IMG/VR virus record: IMGVR_UViG_3300048823_000079
Location: 1-20,848 of that record
DNA from: a virus
Length of the DNA: 20,848 nucleotides
Strand: one strand, 5' to 3'
Below, piece after piece: positions 2,898 through 20,848 of the stretch. Both the position numbers and the translations under genes were made by a program. Positions within the stretch are counted from its first letter, which is position 1. Each line of letters begins with the position of its first letter. The notes under the pieces are model-generated. The model was not told where the DNA came from, searched no databases, and saw nothing but the letters and a program-made list of their open reading frames with translations.

Positions 2898-3235
2898 TAA
2901 CCGTCAAAGCCACGAACGAGGGATTGGCCGGAAAGGCCACGGCATCTGGCTATGTGATCGATCTCGTCGTGTGCTTCGTCGCGCTGCCTTCCGAGCAGGC
3001 GCTCGGGGCCTTCGTTCGGCTCTGGAACCCGCTGAACAATGCGCGATGCATTGCGCAGGTGCTCGACGTCGGGCCGTGGCACACCAACGATAACGACTAT
3101 GTTTTCGGCGGCGCACGGCCGGCGGCTGAATTGCAATCGAACACGAATGGCAGCGGCATCGACCTCGGCGGGAAGGCGTGGGCACTTCTCGGGATGATCG
3201 ATAACACGGAAGTCGGATGGGAGTTCGTATCATGA
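2894..3235 (+). CDS. RlpA-like double-psi beta-barrel protein
   Basis: A 113-residue protein with features of the RlpA/expansin double-psi barrel fold. The order is: SGYVIDLVV, then FVALPSEQALGAFVRLWNP, then ARCIAQVLDVGPWHTNDNDYVFGG and GIDLGGKAWALLGM, ending GWEFV. The VxDVGPW segment corresponds to the VxDRGP strand that carries the key aspartate in RlpA, and GIDLGxxAWxxLG matches the closing helix. There is no signal peptide, so it is probably a virion or cytosolic protein, perhaps acting on peptidoglycan during entry. GTG at 2894 overlaps the previous stop (GTGA); an earlier TTG at 2876 is less likely. It also overlaps the next gene by four bases. The fold is likely; enzymatic activity is not shown. 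Confidence 0.6.
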   Translation: MITVKATNEGLAGKATASGYVIDLVVCFVALPSEQALGAFVRLWNPLNNARCIAQVLDVGPWHTNDNDYVFGGARPAAELQSNTNGSGIDLGGKAWALLGMIDNTEVGWEFVS

Positions 3236-4141: not shown

Positions 4142-4552
4142 ATGACCGGCATTAAATACCCGACCATCACCGTCGGTGAGCACAAAGATCTCATCGTGCG
4201 TTTCTCTCTCGCGGCGCAGTTCCTCTTGCGCCGCCGTGGCATCGAACCCGTGCAGTTGGGCGAAGCACTCGCACCGACTCTGCCGCCGCACACTAAGACC
4301 GCGCCGCCGAATCCGAAGTGCGTCGAGAACTACGTGATTCTGTTCTCGTGCATGGTAGCCGAAAACTTTTTGGATAAGTCGTGCCAGACGCTCGAACTCA
4401 AGTCGGCTCCAACCGCTGATTATTGGGCCACTCAGATTGTCGACTTTGCGGAGGTCGAAACCGCCGTAACCGAGGCGCTAAAAAAAGCCGCGGAGGAGCG
4501 GCGGAAGAAGCTGGCGGCGGTTCCTCCGGCACAGACGGAAGCGGCCAGCTAG
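4142..4552 (+). CDS. Tail assembly chaperone, short (G-type) product
   Basis: A 136-residue product read entirely in the first frame, equivalent to lambda gpG. It should bind the tape measure protein and guide tail tube polymerisation, without remaining in the virion. The N-terminal part is a compact mixed domain (HKDLIVRFSLAAQFLLRRRGI); residues ~85-136 are helical and charged, ending in a Lys/Arg/Ala-rich tail after the slip site. AGGAG lies 8 bases before the ATG at 4142. Residues 114-115 are the two lysines of the slippery AAA AAA codons. Identity comes from its position between tail tube and tape measure genes and from the overlapping -1 frame extension. Confidence 0.75.
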   Translation: MTGIKYPTITVGEHKDLIVRFSLAAQFLLRRRGIEPVQLGEALAPTLPPHTKTAPPNPKCVENYVILFSCMVAENFLDKSCQTLELKSAPTADYWATQIVDFAEVETAVTEALKKAAEERRKKLAAVPPAQTEAAS

Positions 4553-4866
4553 AACCGCTGCCATTTTCGGACGAATATTTCCTCAATCTCTGGGCCTTCG
4601 GGACGTCAAGCGACGGGCTCGGACGCTCAGAGATTCCCTTTTGGCTGCTGACGCATGCGGAGTTCACGGCGCTCAAGCGAGAATGGTGCCGTGCGCGCAA
4701 CATCCCGATGTACACCAAGGAGCAGAAAGAGAATCTCGAGAATGGGCGCCAGTACATTCAACAGGCGTTCATCCGCGCATATGCCCGACAGGCTGAGAAG
4801 GTGCGCGCGAGTGGTCTCCATGTCGTAAGCAGCATTCCTGAGCGGAAGGAGCCCCGAAATGGCTGA
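4142..4866 (+). CDS. Tail assembly chaperone, frameshifted (GT-type) fusion
   Basis: If ribosomes slip back one base at 4480-4486, the first 115 codons are joined to a -1 frame continuing to the TGA at 4864-4866, giving a 241-residue protein like lambda gpGT. The T part starts with a flexible Ser/Gly/Ala-rich linker (to about residue 145), then a helical domain with EPLPFSDEYFLNLWAF, IPFWLLTHAEFTALKREW and TKEQKENLENGRQYIQQAF. It overlaps the tape measure start by eight bases. The -1 frame has no plausible start codon and ribosome site of its own at the right place, while its protein-like region begins exactly after the slip site. Both observations favour frameshifting over an independent gene. 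Confidence 0.78.
4480..4528 (+). promoter_or_regulatory. Programmed -1 frameshift signal
   Basis: In the first frame the bases read CTA AAA AAA GCC, so A-AAA-AAA at 4480-4486 is a canonical X-XXY-YYZ slippery heptamer. Four bases after it, CGGAGGA (4491-4497) can pair with TCCTCCG (4522-4528), giving a 7-bp stem with a 24-base loop that could stall the ribosome. An alternative smaller stem, GCCGC 4487-4491 with GCGGC 4498-4502, starts directly after the heptamer. The position, in the last third of the short chaperone, is the classical one. Confidence 0.82.
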
Positions 4867-14797: not shown

Positions 14798-14815
14798 GAT
14801 AACAGTACAGTTATC
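14798..14815. promoter_or_regulatory. Palindromic operator candidate in the regulatory gap
   Basis: GATAACAGTACAGTTATC: six-base arms GATAAC/GTTATC around AGTACA, whose GTAC core is also symmetric, so 16 of 18 bases obey two-fold symmetry. It lies in the 198-base gap between the terminator and the first small gene, where a dimeric repressor or activator would be expected to act. The rest of the gap (14769-14865) holds no convincing gene. CATACTAG at 14853-14860 could be a weak -10, but a good -35 is not seen. Confidence 0.45.
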
Positions 14816-14865
14816 GGGGATTCTCCCTATCGTTTCCGCGCTTGCAATGTCGCATACTAGTCTCA

Positions 14866-14887
14866 GATCGAATCCATCGATCAGGAG
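14866..14887 (+). repeat. Leader repeat, partial copy R0 (hairpin plus SD)
   Basis: GATCGA-ATCCA-TCGATC (14866-14882) is a 6-bp hairpin abutting AGGAG at 14883-14887, before the ATG at 14894. It matches the second hairpin of copies R1 and R2 (GATCGC-ATCCA-GCGATC) except for one base pair swapped on both sides (A-T for C-G). The upstream hairpin of the full repeat is missing. The bases TCAGGAGAGCAAAATGAC (14881-14898) recur exactly at 15162-15179. Confidence 0.75.
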
Positions 14888-14893
14888 AGCAAA

Positions 14894-15178
14894 ATGACCC
14901 GCACTTTGGGCACGATCAACACAGAAAAGGGCATCGCGGCTTTGATCCACGATGACCAATCCGCGGAGTTTACCGCCAACTACCCCGATGGCACCAGCGA
15001 GCACTTGGGCGATTACTACCCCACTAAATCCTGGCGCGCGGCCCGCAAACAAGCCATTGCGTGGTACACCGATCCAGGCGCCTACCACGATAGCTGGGTG
15101 CTCTGCCTTCGGCCCATCCGCACCCTCCAGCTCATGAAATCAGAGGAGCAATATGCCGATATCAGGAGAGCAAAATGA
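14894..15178 (+). CDS. Small hypothetical protein behind leader R0
   Basis: A 94-residue protein with no recognised family. It is mixed, with an N-terminal strand pair (GKGIAALIHDDQSAEFTANYPDG, part) and a helix with KSWRAARKQAIAWY. AGGAG sits 6 bases before the ATG, directly against a hairpin. It is the first gene after the late terminator, so probably the first gene of the early/middle unit. Its end overlaps the next start by four bases (ATGA). Trp and Tyr are frequent. Early small proteins of phages often disturb host functions, but nothing here points to one. Confidence 0.75.
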   Translation: MTRTLGTINTEKGIAALIHDDQSAEFTANYPDGTSEHLGDYYPTKSWRAARKQAIAWYTDPGAYHDSWVLCLRPIRTLQLMKSEEQYADIRRAK

Positions 15179-15453
15179 CACAGGTAGAATTCATTGAGGC
15201 CAATAAAAGGCTGGCGCGCTGGGTGGTCGAAAATGCGACGACCGAGCACCTGCTGAACGGCCGCTATCCCGCGCTCAATAGCATGACGTATGAGCAGATC
15301 TGCTGGGCACTGCAGCAGATAGATGGACCGCGCGAAGCTCGCCTGATCGAGCGCATGGAGCGCGCCGGCGGCCCAGCGGCATATCGAGAGTCGGTTCGGG
15401 GGGGCAATACTTCATTCCCCGACACCGATCCTAGTGACAATTTCGACGCATAA
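15175..15453 (+). CDS. Small hypothetical protein
   Basis: A 92-residue, mostly helical protein (EFIEANKRLARWVVENATTEH, MTYEQICWALQQIDGPREARLIERM) with an acidic, disordered C-terminus (PDTDPSDNFDA). No family recognised. The ATG at 15175 overlaps the upstream stop (ATGA), and its ribosome site TCAGGAGAGCAAA is an exact copy of that of the preceding gene. The stop is immediately followed by full leader copy R1. Co-translation with the preceding gene is likely. Confidence 0.72.
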   Translation: MTQVEFIEANKRLARWVVENATTEHLLNGRYPALNSMTYEQICWALQQIDGPREARLIERMERAGGPAAYRESVRGGNTSFPDTDPSDNFDA

Positions 15454-15515
15454 CTGAGCCTGTCTCAACTGCCTGACCAGCACAAGAGGTCAGATCGCAT
15501 CCAGCGATCAGGAGA
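15454..15515 (+). repeat. Leader repeat, full copy R1
   Basis: A 62-base element starting at the upstream stop codon and ending in the SD GGAGA. It contains, in order, TGAG-CCTGT-CTCA; CTGACC-AGCACAAGA-GGTCAG (15473-15493); and GATCGC-ATCCA-GCGATC (15493-15509). It matches copy R2 (15907-15969) at 61 of 62 positions plus one inserted A. The conservation of untranslated DNA is far above that of the neighbouring genes. Confidence 0.88.
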
Positions 15516-15520
15516 TTGAG

Positions 15521-15574
15521 ATGAGCACAGTAGACATACTGGCTGAGTCGAAATGCGACATGCTGTACCGCTAG
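15521..15574 (+). CDS. 17-codon mini-ORF behind leader R1
   Basis: ATG at 15521 with GGAGA six bases upstream opens a frame of 17 codons (MSTVDILAESKCDMLYR) ending at TAG 15572-15574. It occupies the exact slot that each other leader copy uses for its gene. It could be a real microprotein, a leader peptide that couples to the next gene, or the stump of a gene that lost its body. Nothing longer is open from this start. Length alone gives no coding evidence. Confidence 0.4.
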   Translation: MSTVDILAESKCDMLYR

Positions 15575-15599
15575 ACAATGAGACATGGAGGCAGTGCAA

Positions 15600-15884
15600 A
15601 TGAGCAGAGCAGAAGAAATCCAAGAATGGGAAGCCAGAATGGCAAAAGACGCGAGGACCGCCGATGAACACGAAGACATGGCGGCAGAAACGCAGAGGGA
15701 GCGCGAGGTGACCCCTATGACCAGATACGAGGCAATGGAATTGATCGCGGATTACGAGGCTGATCCCTCTGGAGTATCCACTTGCGACAATCTTTGTACC
15801 GTATTGGACGGGCTGCCGGAGCAGCCTCCGGAAGGCGAATACACCCCAGATGAGGTCCGCCAGATGGTCCGGGAGCAACTCTAA
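15600..15884 (+). CDS. Small acidic helical protein
   Basis: A 94-residue protein, strongly charged. Residues 1-40 (AEEIQEWEARMAKDARTADEHEDMAAETQRERE) look like one long helix or coiled coil; the C-terminal half (MTRYEAMELIADYEADPSGV..CDNLCTVLDGLPEQPPEGEYTPDEVRQMVREQL) is a separate acidic unit. The ATG at 15600 with GGAGG seven bases upstream is preferred over ATG 15585, which overlaps that site. An internal ATG at 15717 also follows a GAGGTG, so a 55-residue short form is possible. No family recognised. Leader copy R2 begins 22 bases after the stop. Confidence 0.7.
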   Translation: MSRAEEIQEWEARMAKDARTADEHEDMAAETQREREVTPMTRYEAMELIADYEADPSGVSTCDNLCTVLDGLPEQPPEGEYTPDEVRQMVREQL

Positions 15885-15906
15885 ATGTCTCGCTCCACTA
15901 TCTTCG

Positions 15907-15969
15907 CTGAGCCCGTCTCAACTGCCTGACCAGCACAAGAGGTCAGATCGCATCCAGCGATCAAGGAGA
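15907..15969 (+). repeat. Leader repeat, full copy R2
   Basis: Near-identical to R1: one T-to-C change in the first loop and one extra A before the SD (AAGGAGA). Hairpins CTGACC-AGCACAAGA-GGTCAG at 15926-15946 and GATCGC-ATCCA-GCGATC at 15946-15962. Ends five bases before the ATG at 15975. Unlike R3 and R4, its first TGA is not used as the upstream stop. Confidence 0.88.
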
Positions 15970-15974
15970 AGAAA

Positions 15975-16124
15975 ATGTATAGAGCTTATGAAGGTCCGAA
16001 TGGCGGCTGGTACGTGGCATGGGAGAATGCCGAGGGATTTCACCACCAGCCGGATAGCGGAGGTGAGCTGAGCGAAGCCTCGGCCAAACGGATTGCGCGC
16101 CGGAAAAATGACGATCTCCGCTGA
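15975..16124 (+). CDS. 49-residue hypothetical protein behind leader R2
   Basis: Reads MYRAYEGPNGGWYVAWENAE at the start, then a helical end containing GELSEASAKRIARRKND. The first half looks like a small beta unit with an aromatic strand (GGWYVAW); the second is a basic helix. This order (strands, then a GELSE-A..IA helix) is common in tiny phage proteins of unknown role. AAGGAGA lies about 6 bases before the ATG. The stop TGA is the first part of leader copy R3. It is below usual gene-length cut-offs, but its start, ribosome site and exact fit between two leader copies support it. Confidence 0.7.
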   Translation: MYRAYEGPNGGWYVAWENAEGFHHQPDSGGELSEASAKRIARRKNDDLR

Positions 16125-16170
16125 GCCTGTCTCAGCTGCCCGACCAGCACAAGAAGGTCAGGAGGACCAG
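16121..16170 (+). repeat. Leader repeat, shortened copy R3
   Basis: Begins with the upstream stop (CTGAGCC), keeps TGAG-CCTGT-CTCA and the GACC-AGCACAAGAA-GGTC hairpin, then passes directly to AGGAGG. The GATCGC hairpin of R1/R2 is deleted. Ends at the ATG of the zinc-ribbon gene at 16171. The shared loop core AGCACAA is unchanged. Confidence 0.8.
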
Positions 16171-16356
16171 ATGATCTTCACCTGCGCGGAGTGCCATAGG
16201 ACTTTCGAGGATGTTTCGTCTGGCTCTGACGCCGAGGAATTGCAGGAAACATTCGGGCGGCAATTTGAAATTTCGGATTGCGCCAGAGTATGCGATGACT
16301 GCTACAGACAAATCATGGCGTTACTGGGTAAGATTCGCGCCGCGACCAGCCGCTGA
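16171..16356 (+). CDS. 61-residue zinc-ribbon-like protein
   Basis: A short protein with Cys5-x2-Cys8 near the start and Cys37, Cys41 and Cys44 near the middle (DCARVCDDCYRQ), a spacing that suits a zinc ribbon holding one metal ion, followed by a short basic helix. AGGAGG at 16160-16165 decides the start at 16171. Upstream in-frame codons run through leader copy R3 (reading AEPVSAARPAQ), and a longer form would have to translate that leader. Lies between leaders R3 and R4, and its stop TGA is the first part of R4. Likely nucleic-acid or protein binding; no family recognised. Confidence 0.75.
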   Translation: MIFTCAECHRTFEDVSSGSDAEELQETFGRQFEISDCARVCDDCYRQIMALLGKIRAATSR

Positions 16357-16406
16357 GCCTGTCTCGGCTGCCCGACCAGCACAAAAGGTCCAGAAAAGGA
16401 GAAACC
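16353..16406 (+). repeat. Leader repeat, shortened copy R4
   Basis: Starts at the upstream stop with CTGAGCCTGTCTCGGCTGCC, then GACC-AGCACAAAA-GGTC and an AAAAGGAGAAACC ribosome site before ATG 16407. Like R3 it lacks the GATCGC hairpin and carries CCC in place of CCT before GACC, so R3 and R4 form one subtype and R1 and R2 another. Confidence 0.8.
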
Positions 16407-16730
16407 ATGGCACAGATTTCAGCCTCCATCAGCACTGAATACGGTAGTAGTTTCGAGATTTCGACCAGCGTGCAGGGTCTGCTCAACATCACCGCGAGGA
16501 CTTATATTCTCAGTGGATACAACAACCCGGACGGCTCACCGAGAGTCCACCTCTACTCCAACGATGTGCTCAACATCCACGGGACACCCGCCGATCTCCG
16601 CTTGTTTGCGGAAAAGATGATAGACGCGACGGAGGACCCCGCACCGGAGTCCGACGCGCAGATCGACGCCGCGCGCGAGGATAGCGCGTACGCCCCCGGC
16701 GCCGGCGACGTGGAGGTGTTGCGTGGCTAA
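16407..16730 (+). CDS. Hypothetical protein before the recombination genes
   Basis: A 107-residue protein. Residues 1-60 are beta-rich with many Ser/Thr/Ile (SASISTEYGSSFEISTSVQG, LNITARTYILSGY); residues 60-80 form a helix (TPADLRLFAEKMIDATED); the tail is acidic and disordered. The layout (strands, a helix opening LRxFAEKM, then an acidic tail) is common for small early phage proteins. AGGAG lies about 8 bases before the ATG. The last codons overlap the start of the ERF gene and contain its GGAGGTG ribosome site. No family recognised. Confidence 0.72.
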   Translation: MAQISASISTEYGSSFEISTSVQGLLNITARTYILSGYNNPDGSPRVHLYSNDVLNIHGTPADLRLFAEKMIDATEDPAPESDAQIDAAREDSAYAPGAGDVEVLRG

Positions 16731-17469
16731 CGAACTCGCAGTGCACCAGGGCGCGGAAGTGGCGATCCACATCGCACCGACCCCGATGGAGATGATCGCG
16801 GCTATCGCCCGCGATCCGAGCATCCCTGTGGACCGCATCGCGGCTCTGATCGGCCTCCAGGAGCGCATGGAGGCGCGGGACGCCGAGCGCGCGTACAATC
16901 AGGACTTCGCAGCGGCCATGATGGAGATGCCCCGCGTGGCCAAGCGCGGCGCCAAGAAGATGGGAGACAAGGGCACCATCATGTACGCCACCTATGAAGA
17001 TGTCGATGCGGCAGTGCGTCCGGTGGAGACGCGGCACGGGTTCGCGCGGAGTTTCGCCACTCGCCCGAGTGACAAGGCAGGTGTAATCATGACGCTGCGC
17101 CTCACCCACCGGTCGGGGCACAGCACGACATCGGAGCGATTTTGCCGGCCGGACCCGGGGCCTGGTCGTAACGACATCCAGGCCGAGGGCAGCGGCGAGA
17201 GTTATGGACGCCGCTACCTAACGCTGGCGGTCTGGAATATCGTCACGGTGGGCGCCGACGACGACGGCGACTCCGCGGATCCGATCACGGACGAGCAGGC
17301 ACTCGACATCCGCACGATGCTCGATCACCTGGCGATGACGCCGCCGCAGGCCGAGAGGTTCTGGGCCTGGGCGGAAGTGCCGAGCAAACGGCCTGAGGAC
17401 ATTCAGAAGCGTCAGCACGATAAGGTTCGCAGGTGGCTGGCGGATCGGTGTAAGGGAGGTGCGAAGTGA
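16723..17469 (+). CDS. erf: ERF-family single-strand annealing protein
   Basis: A 248-residue protein matching the ERF superfamily (P22 Erf-like), which anneals complementary single strands during phage recombination. Family marks in order: an N-terminal helix with LQERMEARDAERAYNQDFAAAM, the MYATYEDVDAAVRPVETRHGF segment (residues 88-107), LRLTHRSGHSTTSE, then the conserved GSGESYGRRYLTLAVWNI (157-173) and acidic GADDDGD (177-183). The last ~60 residues are a separate helical tail. GTG at 16723 is preceded by GGAGGTG. Its stop overlaps the next start (GTGA), tying it to the exonuclease, its expected partner. Confidence 0.88.
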   Translation: MANELAVHQGAEVAIHIAPTPMEMIAAIARDPSIPVDRIAALIGLQERMEARDAERAYNQDFAAAMMEMPRVAKRGAKKMGDKGTIMYATYEDVDAAVRPVETRHGFARSFATRPSDKAGVIMTLRLTHRSGHSTTSERFCRPDPGPGRNDIQAEGSGESYGRRYLTLAVWNIVTVGADDDGDSADPITDEQALDIRTMLDHLAMTPPQAERFWAWAEVPSKRPEDIQKRQHDKVRRWLADRCKGGAK

Positions 17470-18215
17470 CGCCTAACTACCGCTTCGACATCGCGCAGGG
17501 TTCGGATGAGTGGCTCGCGATCCGGCTGGGCATTCCGACCGCGTCAGAGTTCGACCGTATTGTCACCCCGAAGAAACTGGACCTCGCCGCGGCCAGCAAG
17601 GTCTACATGCACAAGCTGCTCGCCGAGTGGATGTATGGCGCGCCGCTGGAGGCGTTTGTCTCACCGTGGATGGAGCGCGGCAAGGCGCTGGAGGCCGAGG
17701 CCATCCACTACTACGAGATGGAGCGCGACGTCGAGACGCAGGCCATCGGCTTCGTGCTCACGGACGACGGCATGGCCGGGGCTTCACCGGACCGTCTCGT
17801 GGGCGACGACGGGCTGCTGGAGCTCAAATGCCCGGCGCTCGAAACGCACGTCGGATACATGCTCGATCCGGCTTCGCTCCTGGCTGAATACTGGATGCAG
17901 GTACAGGGGCAATTGTGGGTCTGTGATGATCGCGATTGGTGCGACGTGATGAGCTACTACCCCGGCTTCCCGTCGGTCATGTGCCGCACGCACCAGTCTG
18001 ACGGCTCCGACTGCAAGTGCCGCGAGCACATGACGCAGTGCGCTTTGAGCATCCACATTCCGGCCTTCGTCGAGACCATGCTGGCCGCCCGCGTGAAGCT
18101 CACCCAGACGTACGGCGAGCTCCGGCGGGAGCGTGTCTCGGCTGGGCAGCGCGTCGAGGCATCTCGCGCGGCGTTCGATGAGTTTGTGAATTCCCCCATC
18201 GGAGGTGTGGTGTGA
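17466..18215 (+). CDS. YqaJ / lambda-type exonuclease
   Basis: A 249-residue PD-(D/E)XK nuclease of the YqaJ/lambda exonuclease group, which would resect DNA ends to make strands for the ERF protein. Marks: GSDEWLAIRLGIPTASEF near the start; KALEAEAI (Glu76 region); SPDRLVGDDGLLELKCP with Asp109, Glu119 and Lys121 as catalytic residues; and YWMQVQGQLWV as the Gln motif. An unusual Cys/His-rich stretch (Cys173, His176, Cys183, Cys185, His188, Cys192) lies after the core. GTG at 17466 has GGGAGGTG upstream and overlaps the ERF stop. Ends with a GTGA overlap to the next gene. Confidence 0.9.
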   Translation: MTPNYRFDIAQGSDEWLAIRLGIPTASEFDRIVTPKKLDLAAASKVYMHKLLAEWMYGAPLEAFVSPWMERGKALEAEAIHYYEMERDVETQAIGFVLTDDGMAGASPDRLVGDDGLLELKCPALETHVGYMLDPASLLAEYWMQVQGQLWVCDDRDWCDVMSYYPGFPSVMCRTHQSDGSDCKCREHMTQCALSIHIPAFVETMLAARVKLTQTYGELRRERVSAGQRVEASRAAFDEFVNSPIGGVV

Positions 18216-20731: not shown

Positions 20732-20848
20732 ATGACAACAGAAGAGATTTACGCAATTGCACCAAACAAGGATGGATGGCGTGTTTTACCTTCCGGCAAC
20801 GGGGTGAAGCTCGGCAACGAGGTGACGCTCGGCGACTGGGTGAAGCTC
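20732..20848 (+). CDS. Start of a protein with GVKLG/VTLG repeats (partial)
   Basis: An open frame of 39 codons runs off the right edge. The first ~20 residues are mixed (MTTEEIYAIAPNKDGWRVLP); the rest is a run of five- to six-residue units GNGVKLG-NEVTLG-DWVKL, resembling hexapeptide left-handed beta-helix repeats. CGGAG lies 6 bases before the ATG at 20732; another in-frame ATG at 20726 is too close to it. Because the protein is cut, its length and role (acyltransferase-like, fibre-like or other) cannot be told. Confidence 0.65.
   Translation, partial: MTTEEIYAIAPNKDGWRVLPSGNGVKLGNEVTLGDWVKL

Follow-up and report, generated by a model that had tools for sequence, protein, structure and literature searches.

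Repeated hairpin leaders at the start codons of exchangeable small genes in a virus genome from IMG/VR

The 20,848-bp virus record IMGVR_UViG_3300048823_000079 (positions 1-20,848, analysed whole and called the window in what follows) carries a family of near-identical leader repeats, R0 to R4, in front of small rightward genes named A to F (14,894-16,730). Sequence comparison establishes as the core of this portable 5′ leader a predicted RNA hairpin, H3, that abuts a Shine-Dalgarno (SD) sequence AGGAG a few bases before an ATG. H3 most likely works as RNA at translation initiation, and we consider it reasonably probable that the repeats are modular leaders that also serve as recombination seams. 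The copies in the window are as follows.

14866-14887, + strand: R0, H3 only (GATCG-AATCCAT-CGATC) with SD AGGAG, promoter-proximal, before gene A; covariance model score 44.5 bits
15161-15179, + strand: extra tail copy ATCAGGAGAGCAAAATGAC at the start of gene B, hairpin lost
15454-15514, + strand: R1, with H1-H2 block; H2 is TGACC-AGCACAAGA-GGTCA at 15474-15492
15493-15509, + strand: H3 of R1 (GATCG-CATCCAG-CGATC), SD 15510-15514, start codon 15521
15907-15968, + strand: R2, with H1-H2 (H2 15927-15945), H3 15946-15962, SD 15963-15968, start codon 15975
16120-16165, + strand: R3, H1 GCTGAG-CCTGT-CTCAGC (containing the gene D stop), H2 16142-16159, SD AGGAGG 16160-16165, without H3
16352-16401, + strand: R4, H1 (containing the gene E stop), H2 16374-16390, SD 16396-16401, without H3

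A full copy, as in R1 and R2, has three parts. H1 is a weak hairpin over or beside the stop codon of the previous gene; H2 has the form GACC-AGCACAA..-GGTC; and H3, GATCG-CATCCAG-CGATC, is followed after 0-1 nt by AGGAG. Structure prediction folds H2 and H3 of R1 and R2 as drawn here. In R3 and R4 it is H2 that stands ahead of the SD. An earlier note on this DNA, made from the letters alone, had located all five copies correctly and proposed a plan of two hairpins, H2 then H3; this plan holds for R1 and R2 and fails for R3 and R4, which have H2 without H3, and for R0, which has only H3. The covariance model built for H3 gives R3 8.7 bits (E 0.52) and does not accept it as a member, and H2 and H3 are therefore treated as different elements.

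The near-identity of R1 (15454-15515) and R2 (15907-15969) was reproduced at 97% over 62 nt, with one extra A ahead of AGGAG in R2. Identity to R1 is 93% over 40 nt for R3, 89% over 38 nt for R4 and 92% over 26 nt for the R0 tail (14863-14888). The longest exact direct repeat in the window, 49 nt shared by R1 and R2, compares with 13-15 nt in 20 Markov shuffles. A copy absent from the earlier note lies at 15163-15179 (CAGGAGAGCAAAATGAC), a 17-nt exact duplicate of 14882-14898 in the R0 tail (0 expected in shuffles). All of R0-R4 and this gene B tail copy precede an ATG on the + strand, and the products of the small genes that the repeats separate have no significant similarity to one another. 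The copies had been said to run from at or near an upstream stop: R3 and R4 begin inside a TGA stop and R1 directly after a stop, while R2 begins 22 nt past the gene C stop. A 14-codon open frame at 15885-15929 begins directly after the gene C stop, enters R2 and ends in an H2 arm; it is possibly a leader peptide, possibly a chance frame.

H3, not the AGCACAA hairpin, is the widespread part of the repeat. It consists of a 5-bp stem and a 7-nt loop NNNCCAN, followed by AGGAG and ATG, and is present in R0, R1 and R2. A scan for AGATCG..ATCCA.CGATCA hit 14 contigs, with GGAG directly after the hairpin and then an ATG in L141 (three copies), L146, L147, L148 and close relatives of the window; over the stretches compared, no protein of L141, L146, L147 or L148 matches one of the window at E<1e-3. 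A covariance-model search over whole records gave a match in 16 of 19 virus records, 15 of them strong (E below 1e-8), and added a new stem allele, GTCCG-CTACCAG-CGGAC, in the L018 genome (E=1.8e-9). Two more alleles occur in related phages that have the CATACT promoter box of the window: GTCAG-CCACCAA-CTGAY in L011, L017, L020 and L350, and GGCCG-CTACCAA-CGGCC in L012 and L019. L141 holds both GATCG/CGATC copies and TCCCG-CATCCAG-CGGGA. One strong H3 copy is usual for a record, against three in the window, four in L141 and, in the L006 type, two with a further broken one.

Across 15 distinct leaders 100% of cells pair, and four of the five stem pairs change on both sides. The covariation score is 0.585, against 0.169 in shuffles and at most 0.124 when the alignment is slid. 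All alleles keep CCA in the loop, the closing G-C pair and GGAGA; the stem of L017 admits a G-U pair. Sites were also chosen by a rule that ignores the stem (loop CCA, six nt, AGGAGA, ATG): 15 of 16 pair at 5/5 positions, compared with 0/96 in control registers, and the single non-pairing site, L006 4227, is a recombinant seam. The expectation of conserved, covarying stems at start codons among homologs is thus borne out for H3, which has conserved RNA secondary structure at the ribosome-binding site, as translational operator hairpins do. Among the 4227 covariance models of Rfam none matched the early region of the window up to E=1 except one chance-level snoRNA, and nothing rose above the gathering score in seven relative loci.

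Promoter-like signals would place many of the leaders at the start of a message. For nine H3 copies with non-repeat upstream sequence, exactly 6 nt separate the end of a -10-like hexamer from AGATCG; most of the nine also have a -35-like hexamer 17 nt further upstream (TTGACA-17-TAGACT in L147, TTGACA-17-TACACT in L148, TTGCTA-17-TATTAT in L006). Scored at this fixed geometry against random positions, the sites have per-site p values from 0.03 to below 0.0005. This 6-nt spacing would put the start of the hairpin at nucleotide one or two of the predicted transcript. R1, R2 and L006 4434 have no promoter-like signal (p 0.46-0.94), and R1 and R2 are therefore taken as internal copies. The box before R0 also precedes the leader in L010, L011, L012, L017, L019, L020 and L350. 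Two features lie upstream of R0.

14798-14815: palindrome GATAACAGTACAGTTATC (GATAAC-6-GTTATC, perfect 18 bp), ~50 bp upstream of the predicted start of the first leader
14853-14858, + strand: -10-like box CATACT, 6 nt before the predicted start AGATCG; fixed-geometry p=0.02

The palindrome has one exact match in the window and three with up to two mismatches, against 0.26 expected; the two weaker ones lie at 3089 and 19788. It is possibly an operator or other regulator site. A further element, GTTAACTTCAGATAG, occurs upstream of the early promoter in L010 (~1523), L017 (~3945), L320 and L350, which carry different leader alleles.

The leaders also mark where genes have been exchanged. In L006 versus L007 one gene is swapped between flanks 98-99.7% identical, gene A being replaced by an unrelated gene. 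The left break falls at the right arm of H2, after a shared gene D and H1-H2, and the right break at the next start codon; past the left break L006 continues with H3 and gene A, and L007 with another gene. In the window the order is D then E, with gene A far upstream behind the promoter, so cassettes D and A are reordered relative to L006. The blocks of homology between the window and L006 stop in the loop of R0 (14872), immediately ahead of the tail copy at gene B (15158), in the stem of R2 (15949) and in the loop of R3 (16154); in L006, block ends lie at 4432 and 4723. The cassette at 15949-16154, which holds gene D, corresponds to L006 4225-4428 at 93% identity. One further homology end, 16667, falls inside gene F rather than at a leader. 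L011 and L020 match for 400 nt as far as the SD-start region, beyond which their genes are unrelated, and L011 agrees with L320 only from -13 to +42. L012 and L019 have promoter and leader in common and different first genes; the first gene of L012 resembles that of L006, although L006 has another leader allele, and leaders and genes therefore reassort. Most breaks in gene order or content between close relatives fall in leaders. These seams support the suggestion in the earlier note that the repeats offer homology for swapping cassettes. The genes concerned, and the recombination genes beside them, are listed here.

14894-15178, + strand: gene A, 94 aa, without family match
15175-15453, + strand: gene B, 92 aa, no assigned function
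15521-15574, + strand: open reading frame after R1, 17 codons only; the next real gene starts at 15600
15600-15884, + strand: gene C, 94 aa, with its own SD GGAGG
15975-16124, + strand: gene D, 49 aa
16171-16356, + strand: gene E, 61 aa, a four-cysteine, zinc-ribbon-like small protein
16407-16730, + strand: gene F, 107 aa
16723-17469, + strand: ERF-family single-strand annealing recombinase (PHROG 155, E=2.6e-27; Pfam ERF)
17466-18215, + strand: YqaJ-type exonuclease (Pfam YqaJ, E=5.3e-18), likely the partner of ERF

The other half of the repeat is more local. A search of IMG/VR with the ERF protein brought 16 relative loci. Among the matches listed by pattern scans the H1-H2 block occurs only in the window phage and four close contigs (the near-identical L006, L008 and L009, plus L007). 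The AGCACAA core, which the earlier note had proposed as a search handle, returned at least 120 rows in viral contigs, of which the listed ones beyond close relatives are chance; this core proved the less informative half of the repeat. The pattern CTGCCYGACCAGCACAA likewise found only close relatives and chance matches. The copies are not a product of faulty assembly, the same block being present in contigs of other IMG/VR samples (L006, L007, L008 and L009) in other gene contexts. The H1 stem was considered as a conserved structure and set aside: its changes are one-sided, and no claim is made for it.

In most relatives one leader copy heads an operon, mostly beginning at the predicted transcription start. 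In the window phage this module was copied to internal positions together with the H1-H2 block, each unrelated small gene thereby carrying its own leader. The hairpin may keep the SD open and shielded from upstream sequence, and at promoters it may cap the 5′ end of the message. That the loop does not vary suggests a recognising partner: some factor, perhaps of the host, could read the conserved CCA, given that this loop occurs in phages with no detectable proteins in common. The repeated leaders would then supply short homology for cassette exchange, plausibly with the help of ERF and YqaJ, whose genes lie directly downstream in the same phage. We advance more tentatively the wider proposal of a new RNA element, a promoter-anchored hairpin whose invariant CCA loop is read by a factor of a common host, which would explain its presence in phages that have no detectable proteins in common. 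Some phages would employ it as a start module that can be exchanged and as a seam at which early gene cassettes recombine.

Several points weigh against the reading of the repeats as portable leaders and seams. Transcription starts were predicted from consensus only. R0 itself has a fitting -10 but a weak -35, and the distance from the -10 box to the hairpin grows to about 11-17 nt in L012, L019 and the L018 genome. The stems of the H1-H2 block are nearly invariant (GACC/GGTC never varies), which leaves the structure of this block a prediction. Several covariation rows came from searches favouring pairing or the GATCG stem, which is why the stem-free test was made; three of its loci, L141, L350 and L356, themselves came from H3-directed searches, and once these are dropped 9 of 10 sites pair. 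The conserved loop exceeds the needs of a purely mechanical insulator. Selection that keeps leader-gene units together after illegitimate joining would look similar to exchange at the leaders.

It is somewhat unlikely, though well worth weighing, that the leaders are translational operators, a post-transcriptional regulon in which a phage or host RNA-binding protein reads the CCA loop and represses or activates every gene behind a leader. The stem is free to vary but the loop CCA and the closing G-C pair are fixed, a pattern also described for the gene 43 operator of T4 and RB69 (PMC3014915), and a host factor would fit the presence of the leader in L141, L146, L147 and L148 without detectable protein homology in the stretches compared. 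Such a regulon sits poorly with the single copy found in most relatives and with the lack of H3 in R3 and R4, and its binder is putative only.

The palindrome GATCG-N7-CGATC at +1 might instead be a DNA operator, a repressor site like SPBRE of SPbeta or the L5 stoperators. Its symmetry, repetition and position speak for this, and a set of repressors differing in immunity could account for arms that change in concert. We nevertheless find it improbable and prefer RNA, since L141 carries two arm sequences in one phage where an operator should have the same half-sites in all copies, the asymmetric loop always follows the orientation of the gene, a G-U pair is tolerated in L017, and the spacing to AGGAG stays at 0-1 nt even where there is no promoter.

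There is also a slim chance that the leaders are by-products of cassette duplication, copied along with genes and no more than ordinary ribosome-binding sites. R1, R2, R3 and R4 are indeed close copies, and the H1-H2 block is limited to one clade. Pairing is kept through several stem alleles, with an invariant loop in otherwise dissimilar sequence, and for H3 this compensatory pattern already argues against the by-product account.

The earlier note's idea of a shared translation switch is not supported and is highly improbable. In such a switch the SD or start would be held in a pairing with sequence further upstream in the repeat until translation of the previous gene released it. R1 GUCUCAACUGCC can pair with GGAGAUUGAGAU, and in L006 CUCC of the upstream gene can pair with GGAG, but these pairings are not conserved among copies, and the unpaired probability of the SD (0.34-0.70) is intermediate: it deviates from the shuffled controls by no more than about one standard deviation, and shuffling the upstream sequence makes no consistent difference. 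Three structural ideas were rejected as well: attenuation or SD sequestration (folding showed no consistent sequestration), a loop-to-SD pseudoknot (which seems sterically unlikely with a 1-nt linker) and an anticodon-arm mimic (only the dimensions, a 5-bp stem and 7-nt loop, speak for it).

Among known systems the closest in layout are the start-associated repeats (SAS) of cluster K mycobacteriophages, which are repeated in one orientation directly before the starts of different gene families and sometimes include the upstream stop; a second inverted-repeat element (ESAS) stands at about half of the SAS sites, and the function of these repeats is unproven (PMC3203893). The repeats here share the single orientation and the position directly before start codons of unrelated genes. 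The earlier note had drawn this likeness while stating that the sequence differs, and rightly so: the SAS consensus GGGATAGGAGCCC has four matches with up to three mismatches in the window, against 5.8 expected, and none at the repeats. ESAS is an imperfect 17-bp inverted repeat with a 4-13 bp spacer, for which its authors saw little mRNA-hairpin support (PMC3203893); by contrast the arms of H3 are 5-6 bp and those of H2 4-5 bp, too short for an ESAS, and the 5-bp stem of H3 shows strong compensatory change. The repeats are thus a variant of start-associated leader repeats, not the cluster K sequence.

Other comparisons are partial. The T4/RB69 gene 43 translational operator is an 18- or 16-base hairpin with conserved loop UAAC, a single gene and a known binding protein (PMC3014915); H3 is likewise a short hairpin that stands ahead of a ribosome-binding site and keeps some of its loop bases constant, but it precedes many genes, has the loop CCA and has only a putative binder. 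The ompA leader is a 5′-terminal stem-loop that stabilises mRNA (review PMC3997798). At promoter copies the H3 hairpin would similarly begin at the second nucleotide of the message; it differs in adjoining the SD directly, in its conserved loop sequence and in having internal copies. SPBRE of the Bacillus phage SPbeta, the DNA site of the MrpR repressor in promoter regions (PMC10516654), is likewise a phage-specific element repeated in intergenic regions, but the evidence here points to RNA rather than a DNA site.

The left part of the window encodes virion proteins (matches to head protease and tape measure), and the ERF and YqaJ genes follow genes A-F. L009 encodes a protein 90% identical to that of gene A, among genes arranged in another order. 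Gene E has Pfam zinc matches below cut-off only, and cysteine-rich zinc-ribbon-like small proteins recur as swappable first or internal cassettes (L006 4015, window 16171, L012 1400). The C-terminal end of gene F is common to many relatives, and its N-terminal part is replaced in L006 and L007. The small genes of the window had no match in a defence-system library. In L018, at 4560-4740, a terminator-like hairpin is directly followed by gene F and ERF without small genes; because they are missing there, the small-gene region looks like a slot for accessory genes, with L018 as its empty state. An array of 18-bp tandem units (CGGCAACGGGGTGAAGCT in the window), which would encode a six-residue repeat and has many copies in relatives, occupies 20794-20848 of the window, L007 4150-4774, L008 5213-5522 and L018 7680-8052. 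The window and contig L007 both terminate within it, and the array therefore probably broke the assembly.

Other phages of the group repeat other leaders. A second intergenic type with its own hairpin (GGTGGTACC..., GGGG-TGCGCAAG-CCCC, then AAAGGAG) has an exact 38-nt duplicate in L017 (4305-4342 and 4651-4688) and a stem variant in L012 and L019. In L010 a 26-nt repeat, 92% identical between 1874-1899 and 2205-2230, places AAGGAGCTTCA shortly before two start codons and is another start-associated repeat. Isolated phages gave no match to the region and only chance-level matches to the leaders. In cellular genomes 42 leader-pattern matches were judged chance, with contexts and stems that do not fit, and a one-mismatch leader was found in 3 of 396 Acidobacteriota and 1 of 385 Alphaproteobacteria, none in leader context; a host origin of the leader is unsupported, since these matches all lack that context. 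All the sequences are metagenomic, and the label 'soil-type' for the phage is a reading of sample numbers only.

It has long been asked whether phage mosaicism is driven by short sequences at gene boundaries. Conserved boundary sequences have been proposed as its drivers, and the question has resisted an answer because they are not found at most mosaic junctions (discussed in PMC3029335). The leaders resemble such sequences in being shared at junctions where homology begins or ends, with gene replacement. They differ in being structured, present several times within a single genome and adjoined by a recombinase pair, with a near-recent single-gene swap. With the boundary visible in this way, the idea becomes directly testable. 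The leader is in addition a compact, well-defined RNA element absent from Rfam, with a testable stem and loop, and it can guide searches for swappable early genes, which as a class often act on the host.

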